Below, in pieces: positions 37,655-50,207 of a DNA stretch of 60,004 bases (position 1 is the stretch's first letter; each line of letters starts with the position of its first letter). A program made the translations under genes and the position numbers. The notes below the pieces were generated by a model. It was not told the DNA's origin. It saw only the letters and a program-made list of their open reading frames with translations, and searched no databases. The stretch comes from Moraxella sp. (GTDB lineage Bacteria > Pseudomonadota > Gammaproteobacteria > Pseudomonadales > Moraxellaceae), in NCBI GenBank assembly GCA_030528385.1, contig JAUMYZ010000012.1:1-60004 (forward strand). Direction: 5' to 3'.

Positions 37655-38302
37655 TTAATGGGTTGCCATATCGCAAATGCGTTGCCAAATCTTAGCAATG
37701 ATGGCTTGGGGGGTAGCGTTGGCGTTGATGCGGTGTATGCGCTGACAATGCTTGTGCTGATGACAAAAGCCTTGATGGGTGCGCTCAAAAAACGCCAACT
37801 CCTGTGCTTCAAAACGGTCGGCGCTGCTGCGTTTACTGGCGCGTTCCATGCCGATGACAGGGTCAATGTCCAACCAAAAAGTAATATCGGGCAAACACGG
37901 CACAAAGTTGTCAATCAGATAATGAATTTTGGTAAGTTTACACGGCTTGCCCCCATAGCGTCCAAAGCCTTGATACGCCACCGTGCTGTCTATAAAGCGG
38001 TCGCACAGCACCCATTTGCCATCTGCCAAAGCAGGCAGTATCACTTTGTGCGCATGGTCAGCGCGTGCCGCGAACATGAGCAGCAGTTCGGTATCGTCAT
38101 GAATGTCGCTTTTGTTATTAAGTAATATCTCGCGCAGCCGCTCAGCAAGTTCGCTGCCCCCTGGTTCGCGAGTGCGCACATAAGCCAAACCTTGTTTGTC
38201 AAACGCTGCACAAAGTCCATCAATGGCGGTGGTTTTGCCCACCCCTTCTGTGCCTTCAAAAGTGATGAATTTGGGGGGAGATGTGGGGGCTAAAATGGTC
38301 AT
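37655..38302 (-). CDS. tmk: Thymidylate kinase
   Basis: Phosphorylates dTMP to dTDP. 215 residues. P-loop 'FEGTEGVGKTTAIDG', DRx motif 'REPGGSELAERLR', and 'VLCDRFIDSTVAYQGFGR' are all present. Four bases downstream of mltG, the same gene order as in many gammaproteobacteria. Confidence 0.96.
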   Translation of the reverse strand: MTILAPTSPPKFITFEGTEGVGKTTAIDGLCAAFDKQGLAYVRTREPGGSELAERLREILLNNKSDIHDDTELLLMFAARADHAHKVILPALADGKWVLCDRFIDSTVAYQGFGRYGGKPCKLTKIHYLIDNFVPCLPDITFWLDIDPVIGMERASKRSSADRFEAQELAFFERTHQGFCHQHKHCQRIHRINANATPQAIIAKIWQRICDMATH

Positions 38303-38306
38303 GACG

Positions 38307-39431
38307 TTATTCGGTGCTTTGTTTTTCTTGGGCTTGTTGGGTGGCTTTTTCGGCGATGACGGCGCGATATTGTGCCACTGCTTGGTTGTGCTCGTTTAGG
38401 GTAATGCTAAATTTGTGCCCGCCATTGCCTGTGGCAACAAAATACAAATAAGGCACATCGCTTGGTTGCATGGCGGCTTTGATGGCGGCAACCGAAGGCA
38501 AGGCAATGGGGGTGGGGGGCAATCCGTCTATTTGGTAGGTGTTGTAGTCGGTTTTTTCGGCGATGTTGCTTTTATAAATTTTGCCGTCATAGCGGTCAAA
38601 CAACCCATAAATGATGGTGGGGTCGGTTTGTAGGCGCATATTTTGGCGCAAACGATTGACAAAAACGGCAGAGACGTCGGCGCGCTCAGCTTTGACGCCC
38701 GTTTCTTTTTCAATAATACTTGCCATAATCAAGGCTTCATAGGACGATTTATAGGGCAAATCGTCGTTGCGATTTTGCCATGCTTTTTCTAAGATGGATT
38801 TTTGGCTGTCATAAAGGCGTTGGAGCACCACTTTGTCGCTTGTGCCCTGAGCAAAAAAGTAGGTGTCGGGCGCGAACCAACCTTCAAGATTGCCGTTGGG
38901 GGTGTTGATACCCAAACCTTTGGCGACAGCTGTGTTGTCTTGTGCCACATCTGCCCAAGTGTAGGGTTCTTTTTGGGGGCTGAGCAGTTCAAGATGAAGT
39001 CCTTGGGTGTTTTTTAGGGTGCGGTACAAATCTTTGGTGGTTTTGCCTTCTATGATTTGTACTTTGACCATCGCCACCTTTGCGCCTTTATTTAAGATTT
39101 CTATCACTTCTTGTAGGCTGGCGTTGGCAGGAATGCGATACACGCCTTGGTACAGCGACTCTGTGGCATGGAATTTGATGTATAAGCGCGTGGCGAGTTT
39201 GGACGACAGCGCAGAAGTTTGCCAAGGTTCACGAGCAAGCAAGCTATAAAAAGTGTCGCCTTTACCAACACTTAACACGTGCGCTGGGCGTTGGGTTTTG
39301 GCAAAAATGCTTTGATAAATAATGACCACAATCAATACCAACGTTGCCAAAAAAAGCGCTAAGATGGTATAAAAAAAGTGGCGCTTGCTGATAGATGGTT
39401 TGGTGGGTTTTGGGCTTGCCATAATGCTCAT
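38307..39431 (-). CDS. mltG: Endolytic murein transglycosylase MltG
   Basis: Membrane-anchored lytic transglycosylase that cuts nascent glycan strands. About 374 residues from ATG 39431 (ATG 39422 also possible). Membrane helix at ~18-41, then a LysM-like part ('VLSVGKGDTFYSLLAREPW') and the YceG domain with catalytic Glu in 'IMASIIEKETGVKAERADV' and 'LQTDPTIIYG'. A 43-residue open extension upstream has no ribosome site. Confidence 0.94.
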   Translation of the reverse strand: MSIMASPKPTKPSISKRHFFYTILALFLATLVLIVVIIYQSIFAKTQRPAHVLSVGKGDTFYSLLAREPWQTSALSSKLATRLYIKFHATESLYQGVYRIPANASLQEVIEILNKGAKVAMVKVQIIEGKTTKDLYRTLKNTQGLHLELLSPQKEPYTWADVAQDNTAVAKGLGINTPNGNLEGWFAPDTYFFAQGTSDKVVLQRLYDSQKSILEKAWQNRNDDLPYKSSYEALIMASIIEKETGVKAERADVSAVFVNRLRQNMRLQTDPTIIYGLFDRYDGKIYKSNIAEKTDYNTYQIDGLPPTPIALPSVAAIKAAMQPSDVPYLYFVATGNGGHKFSITLNEHNQAVAQYRAVIAEKATQQAQEKQSTE

Positions 39432-39559
39432 CAAAAATGTCGTTGAGCTATTGTAACAAAATCTGAATAAATTTGGGTAAAATTCGTGGCTGGGATTAAC
39501 AAATTCGGCGCTGCAGCAACACAACAGTGGTGGTTTGTGTATTATTTTGTGGGTGAACA

Positions 39560-39592
39560 CAAAAACAGCTCCACCCTAAGGTGAAGCTGTTG
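39560..39592 (-). terminator. katG: katG terminator
   Basis: AACAGCTCCACC and GGTGAAGCTGTT form a 12-bp stem with one mismatch and a 4-nt loop; on the minus strand a T5 run follows. Confidence 0.75.
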
Positions 39593-43732: not shown

Positions 43733-45010
43733 TTATTCATGACGCAGGGCTTGGGCTGGCGCGATTTTTGCGGCGCGCATTGCTGGATAGATTGTGGCAA
43801 TAATGCCAATCATCACAGACAGGGCAATGATGAATAAGACTTGTCGTGGGTCAATCACGCTTGGCAGCTGAGTAACAAAATAGTTGTCAAATAAGCCAAG
43901 AGCAAAAGCGCTGTTAAACCATTTTGAGAGTGGGCCAATATAATAAGCCAGTCCCAGACCCAGAACCGTGCCAATGGCTGTCCCTATGGCTGTGATGATG
44001 AGTCCTTGCCAAAAAAACACGGCTTTTATCAGTTTGGGGGTTGCACCCATCGTTTTTAGGATGGCAATCTCTGCCTTTTTTTCTGTTACTACCATCACCA
44101 ACGATGAAATAAGATTAAACCCCGCCACCACAATCACCAAAGACAACAACAGACCAGACATATTGCGGTTAAGTTGGAGTACTCTGTAGACAGAACCGTG
44201 GGTTTGTGTCCATGGCTGGACGGTAAATTCTGGGTGGAGTTGGGTGAGCGTATTGGCGGTTTGTTTGGCGACAAACACGTCATGAAGCTGCAAATGAAAA
44301 CCTTGAGCGCCCACATCAACCTTGAGCGTGTTGGCAACACTGGACAAATGCGTAAAAGCCAGACGTTGTTCGCTTGCTTTGCTGACTTTAAATATCCCAG
44401 ATATGGTGAAGTTTTGGCTGGCAGGGCTAATCATGTCTGAGCCATGCGTAGGTTTGGGCAAAATGATGTGAACGGTGTCGCCAACCTTAAGACCAAATTC
44501 ATTGGCTAGGGCTTCACCAAGGATGATGTTGTTTTTTGATGTGTCATTGAGCGTGTCCAAACTGCCTTGTATCATGCCCTGTCCATGTTGGGGGGCTTGT
44601 CCCAAAAATGAGAGTTGTTTTTCGTATTCGGGAATGACACCATTTAGCAGCAATATGTGCGATGAACCTGTGATGGATTGGGCGTCGGCAGGCAGCGCCA
44701 GCATGGCTTGGGCGTTTAGGGTTGGTGAGATTTGTTTGATGTTGGGGTCGCTGTCCTTGAGCTGTTTTATGGTGGACTGCCAATCGGTTGTTAGGGTAGG
44801 GGCATATGCCTGAATGTGCGGAATGACACCCAATAATTTGCTTTGCATTTCTGCTTTAAAGCCGTTCATCACCGACAGTATGGTGATGAGCGCTGCAACC
44901 CCCAATACCAAACCCAAAGTGGATATAAACACAATAAACGAGATAAAGCGATTATCTCGTTTGGATTTGATGTTGCGACTGGCTAAAAATAGCGATAAAG
45001 GTTGTTGCAT
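43733..45010 (-). CDS. LolC/E-family lipoprotein-releasing permease
   Basis: Inner-membrane permease of the type that, with the ATPase LolD, releases lipoproteins to LolA. 425 residues: an N-terminal helix (~23-47) after 'FLASRNIKSKRDNRFISFIV', a ~215-residue periplasmic MacB/LolC-like domain, then three helices ('LLLSLVIVVAGFNLISSLVM', 'IITAIGTAIGTVLGLGLAYY', 'FIIALSVMIGIIATIYPAMR') and 'AAKIAPAQALRHE'. No lolD follows. Starts 5 bp after the Slam stop, so the two are almost certainly cotranscribed. Confidence 0.9.
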   Translation of the reverse strand: MQQPLSLFLASRNIKSKRDNRFISFIVFISTLGLVLGVAALITILSVMNGFKAEMQSKLLGVIPHIQAYAPTLTTDWQSTIKQLKDSDPNIKQISPTLNAQAMLALPADAQSITGSSHILLLNGVIPEYEKQLSFLGQAPQHGQGMIQGSLDTLNDTSKNNIILGEALANEFGLKVGDTVHIILPKPTHGSDMISPASQNFTISGIFKVSKASEQRLAFTHLSSVANTLKVDVGAQGFHLQLHDVFVAKQTANTLTQLHPEFTVQPWTQTHGSVYRVLQLNRNMSGLLLSLVIVVAGFNLISSLVMVVTEKKAEIAILKTMGATPKLIKAVFFWQGLIITAIGTAIGTVLGLGLAYYIGPLSKWFNSAFALGLFDNYFVTQLPSVIDPRQVLFIIALSVMIGIIATIYPAMRAAKIAPAQALRHE

Positions 45011-45015
45011 GCTTG

Positions 45016-46578
45016 TCAGAAAGTTTTGCTAAACACAACGGTTGCGTTTGCGTCAGAAAACTCATCAAAGGCATAGTTGCTGTTCACGCGTTTGGCGCTA
45101 AGATTGAGTCTGGGAGTTAGTTTAAAGATACTAAAATCGCGCTTCCAGATACTTAGGCCAATGTTGTATTCTCTGTTATGGCGGGTAATGCCAGCAAAGT
45201 TGATGCCGTCATATTTTTTGCTTGCCATGCCAAAGGTGGCAAGCGTTGTAAAGCCTTTGTCCCACGTGTTGTTCCAAGACAGATTGACGCCAGAGCGCTC
45301 ATAGGAATTTGCGTCCCTAACCCCGTCTTTTTTGGACAAATTCCAATAAATGCCATAGTATTGTTTGGCATTGGGCGCATAGAGTATGCCGTTGGTCATG
45401 GAATAGATGTCGCCGTCATTGTGCTTGTAGGGCGCTTTATAGGACAGGTCGGTAAATTGTGTGGAGTGCTGATACATGACATTTGGGCTGAGCCATTTAG
45501 AGCCTGATAAGCGCACCCCTTTGGAGAGTGTGTAAGATTTAAGACGGTCATCATTGCCAGAGATACCGCCACCATACCAGCTGTGCGACAGTGTGGGGGC
45601 AATCTCTATTTCGCCACTGGCGGTTTGGTAGCCCACGCCCACATTGACCGATGTATAAACGTCGTTGTATTTTTTGTTGTCCCAATAATACGTTCCGCCC
45701 AGACCTGCCGAAAAGGAAGTAAAAAACTTGTTGTCATAAGACCATTTTTTGTCTGCGCTAAGATTATAATTCAGTCCTGTGCCTGATTCGTGGGGCGTTG
45801 TGTAGGTCAATGAAGAAAATTGGTTGCCAATCGTGGTGCCCACAGCAGGAGCGTCTTCTAAGTTGTTATCACGAACAAAAGACACATTGAGACCGTAGCT
45901 CCATTTGTCCAAGCGCTTGATGGATTCAAGATAGCTGGTTAGGGCTTCCCTTTCTGACTCTGGCATGTCTTCGCGCAACAACTTTTCTAGCTCGTTTTTG
46001 GCGGCATTAATCTGTTTGTTTTGGTAGAGTGCCGACGCCATTTGCAGTCGCAACAATCTGATGTTTGGCAAAGCGGCGTTGATTTTGCGAAAGAGTTCTA
46101 CAGATTTGTTGGTGTCGCCCGATTGCAAGGCGATTAACGCTGTGCCCCAATCAATGACGGATTGGTCTTTTTGGGGGTATTTTTCATAAGCGGGCAACAG
46201 CACCGCCAAAGAAGCCGCGTCGGTGCTGGCAATGGAGCGTAGCAACAAGTTTTCAAAGGCTTCTGGGTCTTTTTCAAGATAAGCGTAGATTTGTTCCACG
46301 CTCCAACTGGCGTCTATATTGATGTTTTGTTCGTCGCCGATGAGCGTTGCCGCTGCCGCTTGCTGCAGGGACTGGGCGGACTGCTGGATGTCAATGTCTT
46401 GTTTGGCGCTTTGTAGGGTTTTTTGTTGGTCGTTATAAATGTTGGCTTGATTGGCTTCGTTGATAAGTTTATTTTCTACCTGCGAGACAGAATCTGCGTG
46501 CGCCATTTGCGACAAACAAATACAGGTTGTCATCAAGATGGTGGGACTAAAAATAAGCTGAGTTGGATTGTTTGACAT
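45016..46578 (-). CDS. Slam-family surface lipoprotein assembly modifier
   Basis: Outer-membrane protein that flips lipoproteins to the cell surface. 520 residues from ATG 46578 (AGG 7 nt upstream). Signal peptide ending 'SQMAHA'. N-terminal half helical, TPR-like ('SVELFRKINAALPNIRLLRL', 'SALYQNKQINAAKNELEKLL'). From ~240 to the end the sequence alternates polar and hydrophobic residues as in a beta barrel and ends 'ATVVFSKTF' with the terminal Phe recognised by BAM. This is the DUF560/Slam layout. The lipoprotein upstream is the likely client. Confidence 0.9.
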   Translation of the reverse strand: MSNNPTQLIFSPTILMTTCICLSQMAHADSVSQVENKLINEANQANIYNDQQKTLQSAKQDIDIQQSAQSLQQAAAATLIGDEQNINIDASWSVEQIYAYLEKDPEAFENLLLRSIASTDAASLAVLLPAYEKYPQKDQSVIDWGTALIALQSGDTNKSVELFRKINAALPNIRLLRLQMASALYQNKQINAAKNELEKLLREDMPESEREALTSYLESIKRLDKWSYGLNVSFVRDNNLEDAPAVGTTIGNQFSSLTYTTPHESGTGLNYNLSADKKWSYDNKFFTSFSAGLGGTYYWDNKKYNDVYTSVNVGVGYQTASGEIEIAPTLSHSWYGGGISGNDDRLKSYTLSKGVRLSGSKWLSPNVMYQHSTQFTDLSYKAPYKHNDGDIYSMTNGILYAPNAKQYYGIYWNLSKKDGVRDANSYERSGVNLSWNNTWDKGFTTLATFGMASKKYDGINFAGITRHNREYNIGLSIWKRDFSIFKLTPRLNLSAKRVNSNYAFDEFSDANATVVFSKTF

Positions 46579-46802
46579 AAAAATACCTATATCCAATAAA
46601 TGGATTGCGAGCGTCTGACTGGCGAATAAAACAAGATGAAAAATAGTCCGCTATTATAACATAATTTGACAAAATATTTTGTAAGTTGGTTCAACTTGTG
46701 TTATCAAAATTTGAATAAATTGTTGACATAAAAATAGCCATAAACCTAAGTCTATGGCTATCTGGTTAATCATCAATCAATATCTAGGATACGAACCAAT
46801 GA
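46579..46802 (-). promoter_or_regulatory. Gap between the lipoprotein and Slam genes
   Basis: On the minus strand a terminator comes first, then an extended -10 promoter TGTTATAAT (46661 to 46653) about 75 nt before the Slam ATG. Between them lie two adjacent palindromes: ACAAAATATTTTGT (46669-46682) and AAGTT-N5-AACTT (46683-46697), candidate operators. Slam may thus be expressed both by readthrough and from its own promoter. Confidence 0.5.
46728..46762 (-). terminator. Terminator after the surface lipoprotein gene
   Basis: ATAGCCATA (46734-46742) and TATGGCTAT (46753-46761) pair perfectly; on the minus strand a T4 run follows. It would set the lipoprotein at a higher level than Slam. Confidence 0.75.
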
Positions 46803-48686
46803 TTATTCTGCCTGACCAACACTCCAGTTACCGATGTCTGAAGATGGTGTTTCTTTAGGCTTGGCTAGGACTGTGCCAAACACGGCACCCCATTTTGGTT
46901 CGGCATAACCTTGTGCGCGAGTGATGGAAGCAATGTTGCCGCCGAACTCATTGGCTTGTGGGCCGTAGAATGAGCCAGTGAATGAGCCCACTTCTTCGGT
47001 GCCCACTTTCTTGGACTGACCGATGACTGTGTTGCCACTCACGCCACCATCAAAGGTTGCCAAATCGCGTTTTTCAAATGGCGCTTTTGTGTCTGTTTCG
47101 TCTTTTCTTACCAAGTTGTAGACACTGCCTGTAACTTGGTTTTTGGCGATGTCATATTTGGCTTGTGCAAAGTTACCGATGGTGGCTTCTTTTGCGGTGC
47201 TGCCAAAGGCGGTTGGTACGTGCTGTGAACCTTTGGTAGGTACGTTAGGACCAAGACCATAAGTCAAGGCATGACCAAAGTATTGTAGTACGCCACCTTT
47301 GGCTTGTACTTTCTTCATGTCTTCAACAGAAGTTTGGTGCGTGCCACGATAGAAGTAAGTGTCTACAGTGGTCGGAGCGCCGTGCTCTTGATATTGACGA
47401 TAGATGAAAGAACGGTCGCGGTTTTTCTCTTTGGCGCTAAGCGCGTCAATGTTGTTACTTAGACGACCATATTGAACATACTGCAGTCTTGCGGTTTGAA
47501 CATCGCTCAAGTCAGCGCTGGCTTTGCCAGTTTTTTCATTGTATAGGGCAACATAAGTGTTGTCGGTTTTTTGGTTAGCCTTTGTGCTGCTCTCTAGGTC
47601 TCTGTAGTTTTTACCAAAGATACGTGTGGTGAAGTCGTTGGCTGTGGGGTTGCTTCCAGCATAAGGAGCGATTGCATCGCCACTTTCAACGGTGTGGTTG
47701 ACAGCAAGCAACTTTTTGGTTTTTGTGTCAAGTTTGTAAACGTTCTCTTCTTGACCGAAAGCGGGCGCCACACTCTTGGTTTTTGCGTCAACTTGTGATT
47801 TTGAGTTGTACACCACCAAGCCAGTTTTGTTGTCATTCTCTGCAGCTGCTGATTTTGGAGCTCTGGCTTCAGCAATCGCAGCGGTCAAGCCAGCGGCATT
47901 TACCAAGGTGTTTTTTGCGTTTTCTGTTTGCAAGGTTCTGACGTCAGCGTAGGTGTAGTTTACGTCAGTTTTTGCATTGGCTGTGTCAGCTGTTTGGTAC
48001 TTTAGACCATCTGTTTGGGTGTACAGAGACGCCGCTGCTCCAACTGCACTGCCATCGCTTTTGACTTCTTCACCTGTGGCGTCGACCGCGATGATTTTTT
48101 TGGTGGATTTGCTGGCTTCTACACCAAAGGCGTAGTTTGACAACCATGGGTTTTGTTCTTCGGCATTGTAGAACGAGCTGTTACCAGAGCTGGCGCTCTT
48201 GTCAGCGTTTGCTGGACGGTCGTAGTTAGAGTTTTCTTTGCGGATGTAGTGAGCAGTACTGACCGAAGGAACTTTGCTTGAGTCAAAGTTGTCAATGAAA
48301 GGGTTGGTTACAGTAACCACTTCAGAGATTGGGCTGTTTTGTTTTTGACCTTTGACTGCGTCAGCAAGCAGCTTTTTGAACTCTGGGCTGTCGGCTTTAA
48401 GAGTTTTGTTGGCTTGAGCAAGTGTATTGGCTTGGTTGGCGTTCAGACCAGCTTCCAAAGCGGCTTTGACCAGCTTGTCAATGTTCTCTTTCTCGGCTTT
48501 TTGGGCAGCTTCTTTAGCTTCTTTAGCTTGTTGAGCTTTTTTGGCTTCTTCAGCTTTTTTGGCTGCATCATCATCTTGTTTTACAATCGGTGTAGAGGTG
48601 CTGGGGCTGTCATCGCTACCACAAGCTGTCAATGCTAGTGCAGCTAAGCTAATAGACACTGCCGATGCTAGGTTATTAAGTTTCAT
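46803..48686 (-). CDS. Large TbpB-like surface lipoprotein, probable Slam client
   Basis: 627 residues. Signal peptide with lipobox 'ALALTAC' (Cys22), then a Ser/Asp/Thr-rich linker and a highly charged Ala/Lys/Glu coiled coil (~40-75). The middle has no family I recognise. The C-terminal ~110 residues carry 'GSFTGSFYGPQANEFGGNI', the 8-stranded barrel signature shared by TbpB, LbpB, HpuA and factor H-binding proteins, which Slam proteins recognise. The N-terminal coil is unusual for TbpB. The ligand is unknown; no TonB-dependent receptor is adjacent. SD GGAAG precedes the ATG. Confidence 0.85.
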   Translation of the reverse strand: MKLNNLASAVSISLAALALTACGSDDSPSTSTPIVKQDDDAAKKAEEAKKAQQAKEAKEAAQKAEKENIDKLVKAALEAGLNANQANTLAQANKTLKADSPEFKKLLADAVKGQKQNSPISEVVTVTNPFIDNFDSSKVPSVSTAHYIRKENSNYDRPANADKSASSGNSSFYNAEEQNPWLSNYAFGVEASKSTKKIIAVDATGEEVKSDGSAVGAAASLYTQTDGLKYQTADTANAKTDVNYTYADVRTLQTENAKNTLVNAAGLTAAIAEARAPKSAAAENDNKTGLVVYNSKSQVDAKTKSVAPAFGQEENVYKLDTKTKKLLAVNHTVESGDAIAPYAGSNPTANDFTTRIFGKNYRDLESSTKANQKTDNTYVALYNEKTGKASADLSDVQTARLQYVQYGRLSNNIDALSAKEKNRDRSFIYRQYQEHGAPTTVDTYFYRGTHQTSVEDMKKVQAKGGVLQYFGHALTYGLGPNVPTKGSQHVPTAFGSTAKEATIGNFAQAKYDIAKNQVTGSVYNLVRKDETDTKAPFEKRDLATFDGGVSGNTVIGQSKKVGTEEVGSFTGSFYGPQANEFGGNIASITRAQGYAEPKWGAVFGTVLAKPKETPSSDIGNWSVGQAE

Positions 48687-49178
48687 AAGGAACTTCCTAT
48701 ATATTGTTGAAAATCACCAAACACATGTTTGGATAGTTAAGATAACCAACCGAGGTTTGGCTTACCATTGTACAACTCATGGTTAGTTATGTCAATCTGC
48801 ACCCACCACACGACCACAGGTCATTTGGCAAAGACAGACAAACGGCTACAAAGTAGCTTAAAGTATATGGTAATAAAATTGCTTTTACTTTGTCAAGTAA
48901 AAAAATCTACTTTGTTACGATTGCGCAGTTTTTGACACAGCTTATTGCAAAATTTAACATGACAGAAAGTCATCAGACGCCACCGCCAATAAAAAAGCAA
49001 TAACAACCAACTCAATGGTAAAGACAAAACTCACCATAACTGGCTAATATTTTAGCATATTTTCAGGTGTATTGAATAATTTTTGTCCCATTATTTGTGC
49101 CACTTATCCCAATATGTGATGAAGGGCTTTGTTGCTGTGTTGGGGTTGGGCAAATAAAAGACAACGGTTGCTAATGTC
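48687..49178 (-). promoter_or_regulatory. Long control region of the surface lipoprotein gene
   Basis: A 492-bp non-coding gap. On the minus strand a perfect -35 TTGACA (48896 to 48891) lies about 205 nt before the ATG, with a possible -10 TACCAT at an 18-nt spacing, so the leader is long. The -35 lies inside an inverted repeat TTTTACTT / AAGTAAAA (48883-48902), and an element ACAAAGTA/TACTTTGT occurs at 48848-48855, 48886-48893 and 48908-48915. Near the gene, CCAAAC-ACAT-GTTTGG (48717-48732) forms a hairpin. From ~48930 to 49178 I see nothing further. Confidence 0.5.
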
Positions 49179-50207
49179 TCATTTTAGCAACCAACCCTGA
49201 CTGATGTGCACGCCCACCGTGTCGCCAATGGCGAAATCTTGTTGATGACTGCCCTGCGCCAACAAGGTTGCTCCGTCTTTGTTTAAGGTATAAAGCCAAT
49301 GGCTGCCGCGAAAAGATTTTTGGCTGATGACCGCGCACAAGGCTGTGGCGTCCAGCTTTAGTGATGTGTTTTCGGGGCGCACCAAGATTTTGTTGGCGTG
49401 GGGGCAGTGATTGGCGCAGGCTATCGTGCCAAAGGCTGTGCTGGCGGTTGAATGGCTGGGGTCTAAGCGTTCAATGGACAGCAACGAGCCTTCGCCAACA
49501 AAGCGCGCAACGGCGGGCGTTTGGGGCTGATGGTACAAATTGGTGGGGCTGTCCCATTGCTCCAGCGTGCCATCGGTCATGATACCCACCACGTCCGCCA
49601 CGTTGAAGGCTTCGGCTTGGTCGTGCGTTACCAAAATGGCGCTGACGTTTTCGCTTTTGAGCAAGGTGCGCACTTCATTGGACAAGGTGTTGCGCAAATC
49701 CACATCAAGATTGGAAAATGGCTCATCAAGCAGCACCAATTTGGGGCGTGGTGCCAGCGTGCGTGCCAGCGCCACCCTTTGTTGTTGCCCGCCTGAAAGT
49801 TCGTGGGGGTAGCGGCGTTCGTAGGGCGACATTTCAATCAACGCCAGCAGCTCGCCGATACGTTCGCGCTGAGCTTGTTTGGATAGATGACCAAGACCAA
49901 AAGCAATGTTTTGGGCAACGGTCAAATGGGGGAACAAGGCATAATCTTGAAACACCATGCCGATTTGACGTTTGTGTGGGGCGATGTTGATGTGTTGTTG
50001 GTGGTCAAATAGGGGGGTTTGGTTCAGTGTGATGGCGCCTGTTTTGGGGGTCTCAAAACCGAGCAAACACCTTAAAATACTGGTTTTGCCGCAGCCAGAA
50101 TGCCCAAGCAAGCAGGCGATTTGTCCTTGGGCGAGCTCAAAGCCGACGTGAGTAAAAACGGGTTTGTCGCCAAATTGTAAAGCAAGCTCACTTACAGATA
50201 AGGTCAT
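49179..50207 (-). CDS. fbpC: Ferric-iron ABC transporter ATP-binding protein
   Basis: ATPase of an FbpABC-type Fe3+ importer. 342 residues: Walker A 'LLGHSGCGKTSILRCLL', Q-loop 'MVFQDYALFPHLTV', signature 'HELSGGQQQRVALARTLAP', Walker B 'LVLLDEPFSNLDVDL', and a C-terminal regulatory TOBE-like domain ('ILVRPENTSLKLDA'). Overlaps fbpB by 4 bp. Confidence 0.92.
   Translation of the reverse strand: MTLSVSELALQFGDKPVFTHVGFELAQGQIACLLGHSGCGKTSILRCLLGFETPKTGAITLNQTPLFDHQQHINIAPHKRQIGMVFQDYALFPHLTVAQNIAFGLGHLSKQAQRERIGELLALIEMSPYERRYPHELSGGQQQRVALARTLAPRPKLVLLDEPFSNLDVDLRNTLSNEVRTLLKSENVSAILVTHDQAEAFNVADVVGIMTDGTLEQWDSPTNLYHQPQTPAVARFVGEGSLLSIERLDPSHSTASTAFGTIACANHCPHANKILVRPENTSLKLDATALCAVISQKSFRGSHWLYTLNKDGATLLAQGSHQQDFAIGDTVGVHISQGWLLK

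Follow-up and report, generated by a model that had tools for sequence, protein, structure and literature searches.

A 60,004-nucleotide stretch of Moraxella sp. DNA (contig JAUMYZ010000012.1, positions 1 to 60,004; hereafter, the window, which is the entire contig C8 of the searched assembly of 2.05 Mb in 20 contigs) carries, next to one another on the minus strand, genes for a lipoprotein, a Slam translocon and a second copy of the Lol-family permease LolF. Judging from the sequences, we consider it fairly probable that this trio is a surface-lipoprotein export module, in which the permease is a LolF paralog (hereafter, LolF2) dedicated to the client of the neighboring Slam. In functional terms, LolF2 would then be reserved for this client, and the inner-membrane and outer-membrane steps of its export would be linked.

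The lipoprotein, that is, the putative client (46803-48686, minus strand), contains an LTAC lipobox, identified by eye from the sequence, with the residues CGSDDS after the signal peptide, followed by a K/E/A-rich linker and a single C-terminal TbpB_B_D domain (PF01298, 5e-14). The Slam gene (45016-46578, minus strand; the ATG is at 46578, and a longer form starting with TTG at 46596 is possible) encodes an N-terminal region, a TPR domain (PF24575, 7e-23) and then the SlipAM barrel (PF04575, 9e-63), with both domain matches above the cut-off. The permease gene (43733-45010, minus strand) encodes the MacB_PCD (PF12704) and FtsX (PF02687) domains, and its ATG is separated from the Slam stop codon by 5 bases (45011-45015). 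The first-pass annotation of this DNA, made from the sequence alone, had described the same three consecutive genes with the same spacing, and both the coordinates and the domain matches confirm this arrangement. The client combines a lipobox, a C-terminal barrel of the TbpB_B_D type and an adjoining Slam, the sequence hallmarks of Slam-dependent surface lipoproteins, and may be displayed on the surface via the neighboring Slam. This is the only intact Slam found in the genome, the second match (C20:101451-102201; L014, L015) being split between two frames and interrupted by two TGA stops.

The permease aligns with the full TIGR02212 (lolCE) model (positions 1-411 of 411, 4e-108) but its score, 361.6-362.0 bits, is under the equivalog cut-off of 362.45, and we therefore denote it a LolF paralog rather than an equivalog. 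In the phylogenetic tree, it groups with the LolFs of Moraxellaceae, so that of the original assignment to LolC/E the Lol family stands, whereas the type is LolF rather than LolC or LolE. The only other place in this genome that matches TIGR02212 is C12:111757-112983 (475.2 bits), the permease gene of a housekeeping lolF-lolD pair located on another contig (C12:111079-112983). The LolD encoded there (321.5 bits; cut-off, 307.75) is the single one above the cut-off in this genome, the next ATPase reaching 178.5 bits; thus, any ATPase that serves the window permease has to be shared. There is no LolD beside the permease in the window, as noted at first pass; the ATPase encoded at 49179-50207 was considered and rejected because it scores only 118.5 bits with the LolD model and has a permease gene of the corresponding kind next to it. 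Of the two options initially raised for this gene, a sole Lol permease placed here by chance is ruled out by the separate lolF-lolD pair, and a second copy is what we find. A single LolA is encoded in each of the 16 genomes tested, including all eight that carry the trio, and in the window's genome one LolA is over the cut-off.

The lipoprotein-Slam-permease order on one strand is found in 8/8 loci of the clade to which the window's Slam belongs, all eight client homologs containing TbpB_B_D, and chance neighborhood is ruled out by this recurrence. Besides the window's genome (G000), the Slam-linked second permease is present in seven of the 348 genomes of the family, six of them Psychrobacter-like, namely, Psychrobacter immobilis A-11 (G258), P. 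immobilis S3 (G257), P. lutiphocae DSM 21542 (G265), Psychrobacter sp. ANT_WB68 (G295) and two more genomes of the same genus (G280 and G316), and one of another genus (G213). The cassettes are embedded in five flanking contexts across three genera: G257, G258, G295 and G316 share one site, and the other four carriers have other flanks. A search of the 348 genomes with the window's Slam yielded 35 places at 1e-40, namely, its own, seven at 8e-103 or better, which are exactly the other genomes with the Slam-linked permease, and 27 from 3e-68 down. None of these 27 more distant Slam places has a neighboring LolF (22 were inspected with up to 1.5 kb on each side and five separately; those in G266 and G269, genomes with one LolF match each, lie less than 300 bases from the contig end downstream), and neither does any of 36 wider Slam regions. 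Among 77 Slam locus records, the permease is present in 15 (8 distinct places) and absent in 62 (three of these being repeats).

Outside the family, LolF is not a neighbor at any of the 12 remaining loci from the named scan, three of which (L173, L174 and L176) stop 40 bases or less after Slam, or at the eight Slam loci of the class sample; of the 369 genomes in that sample, four, the window's own included, gave a match. In Neisseria gonorrhoeae (NZ_CP119140), LolF has a single place, at 837389, which is about 0.8 Mb from the best Slam match (1654214), so that this Slam is unlinked. Within the genus, a search of 22 genomes (the window's included), in which all candidates were scored, detected some Slam in 13 genomes and no second permease in the other 21, their other second matches reaching at most 41 bits; one genus genome, G007 (a single contig, listed as 100% complete), produced no match in the permease, Slam and metY searches and is perhaps a masked or faulty record. 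In the family-wide permease search, up to five candidates were scored per genome, so that the counts of second copies are lower bounds, and at least 20 of the 348 genomes have two permease matches at 1e-30. The linkage therefore recurs, as the comparison of gene order proposed at first pass was to reveal, in seven other genomes of the family, but not at the best Slam of N. gonorrhoeae or in the rest of the genus; likewise, of the two circumstances that had been thought to make the link incidental, the first does not apply, as the permease is not the sole LolF, and the second, absence of Slam from this position in close relatives, holds in the sense that the 21 other genus genomes lack a second permease.

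The Slam-linked permeases form one clade (support 95/94 among 43 rows; 99 and 100 when either of the two long rows, the window's or that of G213, is dropped), which groups with the housekeeping LolFs from the three genera that carry the trio, apart from the LolFs of genus g2, in a tree that includes three g2 genomes, has long branches and is rooted only at the midpoint. The respective Slams also form a clade (100/99 among 51 rows), and permeases and Slams branch identically: ((G000,G213),((G265,G280),(G316,(G295,(G257,G258))))). The window permease is only 37-43% identical to the other seven, whereas the corresponding figure for the housekeeping LolFs in these genomes is 73-79%; the identity of the G316 Slam is 35%. 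The permease shows purifying selection in those Psychrobacter pairs that are amenable to measurement, with ratios of nonsynonymous to synonymous substitution rates (dN/dS) of 0.10, 0.10 and 0.12 among G257, G258 and G295; two other of the five pairs are saturated in dS. Between the two P. immobilis genomes, dS is 0.05 for Slam and 0.07 for the permease, 0.70 for the strongly differing clients (L150 6297-7907 and L151 5140-6714) and 0.25 for the housekeeping lolF, a contrast that suggests recent exchange of the machinery along with a faster-changing client.

To locate the changes in the paralog, retention in the eight Slam-linked copies was scored over 160 columns in which at least 95% of 31 housekeeping LolFs share one residue. 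With the borders of the transmembrane (TM) segments and the "coupling segment" placed on the LolF alignment where we presume them to be, mean retention is highest in TM2 and the coupling segment (78%), followed by TM3-TM4 (73%) and the N-terminus with TM1 (66%), whereas it is 62% in the cleft (2 columns only), 58-61% in other periplasmic parts and lowest, 35%, in the Hook/Pad stretch. Hook/Pad columns are changed in 7 of 13 cases, against 24 of 147 elsewhere, and the lowest of 175 retention windows fall within columns 186-219. Immediately after the Hook, the housekeeping proteins have RFKR (29/31) or RFKQ (2/31), whereas among the Slam-linked copies six have no lysine or arginine and two have one. 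The segment that matches the client-binding cleft of Escherichia coli LolE (PMC12846838) comprises 22-35 residues in the Slam-linked copies, compared to 22-23 in the 31 housekeeping rows. We read these changes as LolD coupling having been kept and the faces for LolA and for the client having been altered.

As a tentative proposal, in which we place limited confidence, these observations can be combined in a scheme of client-specific extraction, whereby a duplicated LolF was captured by a Slam operon, is paired with LolF over a shared LolD and re-evolved a LolC/LolE-like split, giving the client a private route across both membranes. In the export module that we consider fairly probable, LolF2 would work with the common LolD and would release the client from the inner membrane, in the favored form as a LolF/LolF2 heterodimer over two LolD subunits. 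In such a heterodimer, the housekeeping LolF would recruit LolA, as LolC does, and LolF2, with its changed LolA-docking face, would be the client-handling half, as LolE.

Several points weigh against this interpretation and against the export module itself. In proteoliposomes, the outer-membrane step mediated by Slam1 did not require addition of an inner-membrane factor (PMC9090332), and none of the other Slams in the genus adjoins such a permease. The Slam-permease gap is 34, 34, 38, 51, 70, 199 and 201 bases in the other loci, so that the tight coupling seen in the window, with its 5 bases, is not a shared feature. Congruence between the client tree and those of the machinery is only partial, with G213 and G316 placed differently, and the LolD count pertains to the window's genome. 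The concentration of changes in the Hook/Pad columns (Fisher p 0.004) comes from a post hoc test that takes columns as independent and draws on 31 housekeeping rows that are close relatives. Moreover, E. coli LolE keeps four lysines or arginines in the aligned Hook/Pad stretch, hence the loss of basic residues after the Hook is not LolE-like as such. Finally, the length of the Hook loop is kept in the Slam-linked permeases, and E. coli can do without the Pad if the background is suitable (PMC10865981), so that a homodimer may still be able to dock LolA.

The alternative that fares best, which we nevertheless regard as unlikely, is precisely such a LolF2 homodimer that works with the shared LolD but without the housekeeping LolF, the client passing either to LolA, with only the Hook involved, or straight to the periplasmic TPR domain of Slam. 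The high retention of TM2 and the coupling segment, the invariable proximity of the permease to this Slam clade and the constant Hook loop length all fit a homodimer, and Hook sequences are poorly conserved in general (PMC10865981). Nevertheless, after the Hook, where the housekeeping proteins have two or three lysines and arginines, 8/8 Slam-linked copies have one or none, and the literature covered here does not describe a direct transfer of the client to Slam. It is highly improbable that LolF2 is a redundant extra LolF that increases the flux of lipoproteins in general and is carried along by the Slam operon: lolF has been duplicated elsewhere, with at least eight genomes of genus g2 containing two copies about 680 bases apart by coordinates, but one permease clade is tied to one Slam clade across three genera and five contexts, the Slam-linked copies are far more diverged than the housekeeping ones, and LolD does not adjoin. 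Hardly any more credible is a permease that no longer moves lipoproteins and is instead a MacB/FtsX-like mechanotransmission protein, for instance, a sensor or regulator of Slam traffic, because, the shared superfamily domains (PF12704 and PF02687) and the altered Hook/Pad stretch notwithstanding, the Lol models are by far the closest (the best non-Lol model, ADOP, reaches only 2e-10), and TM2/coupling and TM3-TM4 are the best-kept segments.

Duplicated permeases are encountered in other settings within the family. In two g2 genomes, G162 (L210 3594-6778) and G058 (L211 3421-6605), the order is lolF-lolD-lolF, with two diverged LolFs. In G345, a second lolF-like permease gene lies beside an ABC ATPase gene (L157 10923-12840, minus strand) and is not Slam-linked, and G309 has a split second copy, also beside an ABC ATPase gene; G198 likewise gives two permease matches at 1e-30. 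A 140-amino-acid C-terminal permease fragment in G211 (L159 9537-9956, minus strand) is no nearer to the Slam-linked than to the housekeeping type and lies among the same neighbors as the G213 cassette; by its position, it is likely a remnant of a lost cassette. The mltG- and tmk-like genes of the window (38003-39575; grp26 and grp27), about 4 kb from the cassette, have counterparts of the same groups at L159 1564-3539, about 6 kb from the G211 fragment and in a different relative orientation, which may hint at an old site once shared. As a separate observation, P. lutiphocae encodes, about 5 kb from its cassette, another Slam, accompanied by a small TbpB_B_D lipoprotein and not by a permease (L153 1543-4027, minus strand). 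The cassette of G213 is also present in BMPS01000016.1 (L162), a record titled Streptomyces cinereus JCM 3040 that is probably mislabeled or contaminated.

Carriage on plasmids was rejected, given that the plasmid collection holds no close relative (best permease, 39.9%; best Slam row, 27.9%), and foreign composition is at most a mild sign, the GC content of the cassette being 46.1% versus 47.8% in the rest of the window, and 1.2-3.9 points below the region in four other loci. As a possible marker of an empty site, metY was sought in the 21 other genus genomes and matched in 10 of them (1e-150 or better); none of the seven surroundings inspected has any other window gene near it, so that gain and loss of the cassette are indistinguishable.

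The trio had initially been read as genes in one line, which holds for order and strand but probably not for a single uniform transcript. A terminator-like hairpin with a T tail (46732-46763, minus strand; 14 pairs and a 4-base loop in the RNA fold) lies between the lipoprotein and Slam genes; although absent from the matches that the scan listed, a hairpin stands after the lipoprotein gene in 8/8 loci, with a clear T tail in five (the window, L153, L154, L155 and L156) and a weak one in L150-L152. Given this hairpin, the lipoprotein transcript is probably ended separately from that of Slam and the permease. An extended -10-like element, TGTTATAAT (46653-46661, minus strand), identified by eye and likewise absent from the scan's listed matches, is a possible promoter of the Slam-permease pair. 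Upstream of the lipoprotein gene, there is a promoter-like site (48767-48795, minus strand; TTGACA, 17 bases, TACAAT; 11 of 12), which is a consensus match only, in a region with 16 such matches against 8.8 expected. There is no case for control by a Fur box: in the window the best matches reach 11 or 12 of 19, and those in four other loci reach 12-14 of 19. Aspartate is found at position +4 (seven) or +5 (one) after the lipid cysteine of all eight clients, whereas an acidic residue at +2 to +6 is present in 2 of the 14 listed lipobox neighbors of other Slams (both from one locus) and in 24 of 70 lipobox open reading frames (the eight clients included); because acids are common near the lipid cysteine and the clients are homologous, this pattern is only a lead.

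In the models of PMC9090332 and PMC7857515, Slam clients rely on the general Lol pathway until they reach the outer membrane. The modules of Slam, or the type XI secretion system, such as Slam-TbpB of M. catarrhalis, similarly place Slam beside a TbpB_B_D lipoprotein (PMC5449769, PMC12282271), and the K/E/A-rich stretch with a single TbpB_B_D domain in our client resembles the Pls-like cargo group (PMC12282271). Unlike the modules described in these texts, the trio includes an inner-membrane Lol permease. A Slam-linked Lol permease is not mentioned in the accessible portions of PMC8406197, PMC5449769, PMC10865981, PMC11784454, PMC12846838, PMC9090332, PMC7857515 or PMC12282271, the main text of the last of these containing no words that start with Lol, and we found no report of one in this Slam and Lol literature, which excludes preprints.

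The window permease is homologous over its full length to the LolF of the LolF-LolD transporter (solved LolF chains 9w37, 9w35 and 9w2w) but differs in being a second copy away from lolD, with changed Hook/Pad columns and far greater divergence between the same genomes. The favored reading, a LolF/LolF2 pair, resembles E. coli LolC/LolE in having one half that recruits LolA and another that handles the client; however, the LolF2 duplication is independent, within Moraxellaceae, the partner is encoded on another contig, the paralog is Slam-linked, and LolE keeps the lysines and arginines that LolF2 lost. A lolF-lolD-lolF operon has been proposed as a hypothetical step toward, or ancestor of, LolCDE (PMC11784454); this likewise involves duplication of LolF, but in tandem around lolD and without Slam, the order observed in the two g2 genomes. 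The trio provides a natural case of LolF duplication that can be examined for a LolC/LolE-type split, and the fact that one Slam clade retains its own LolF paralog suggests that the routing of some clients starts at the inner membrane.

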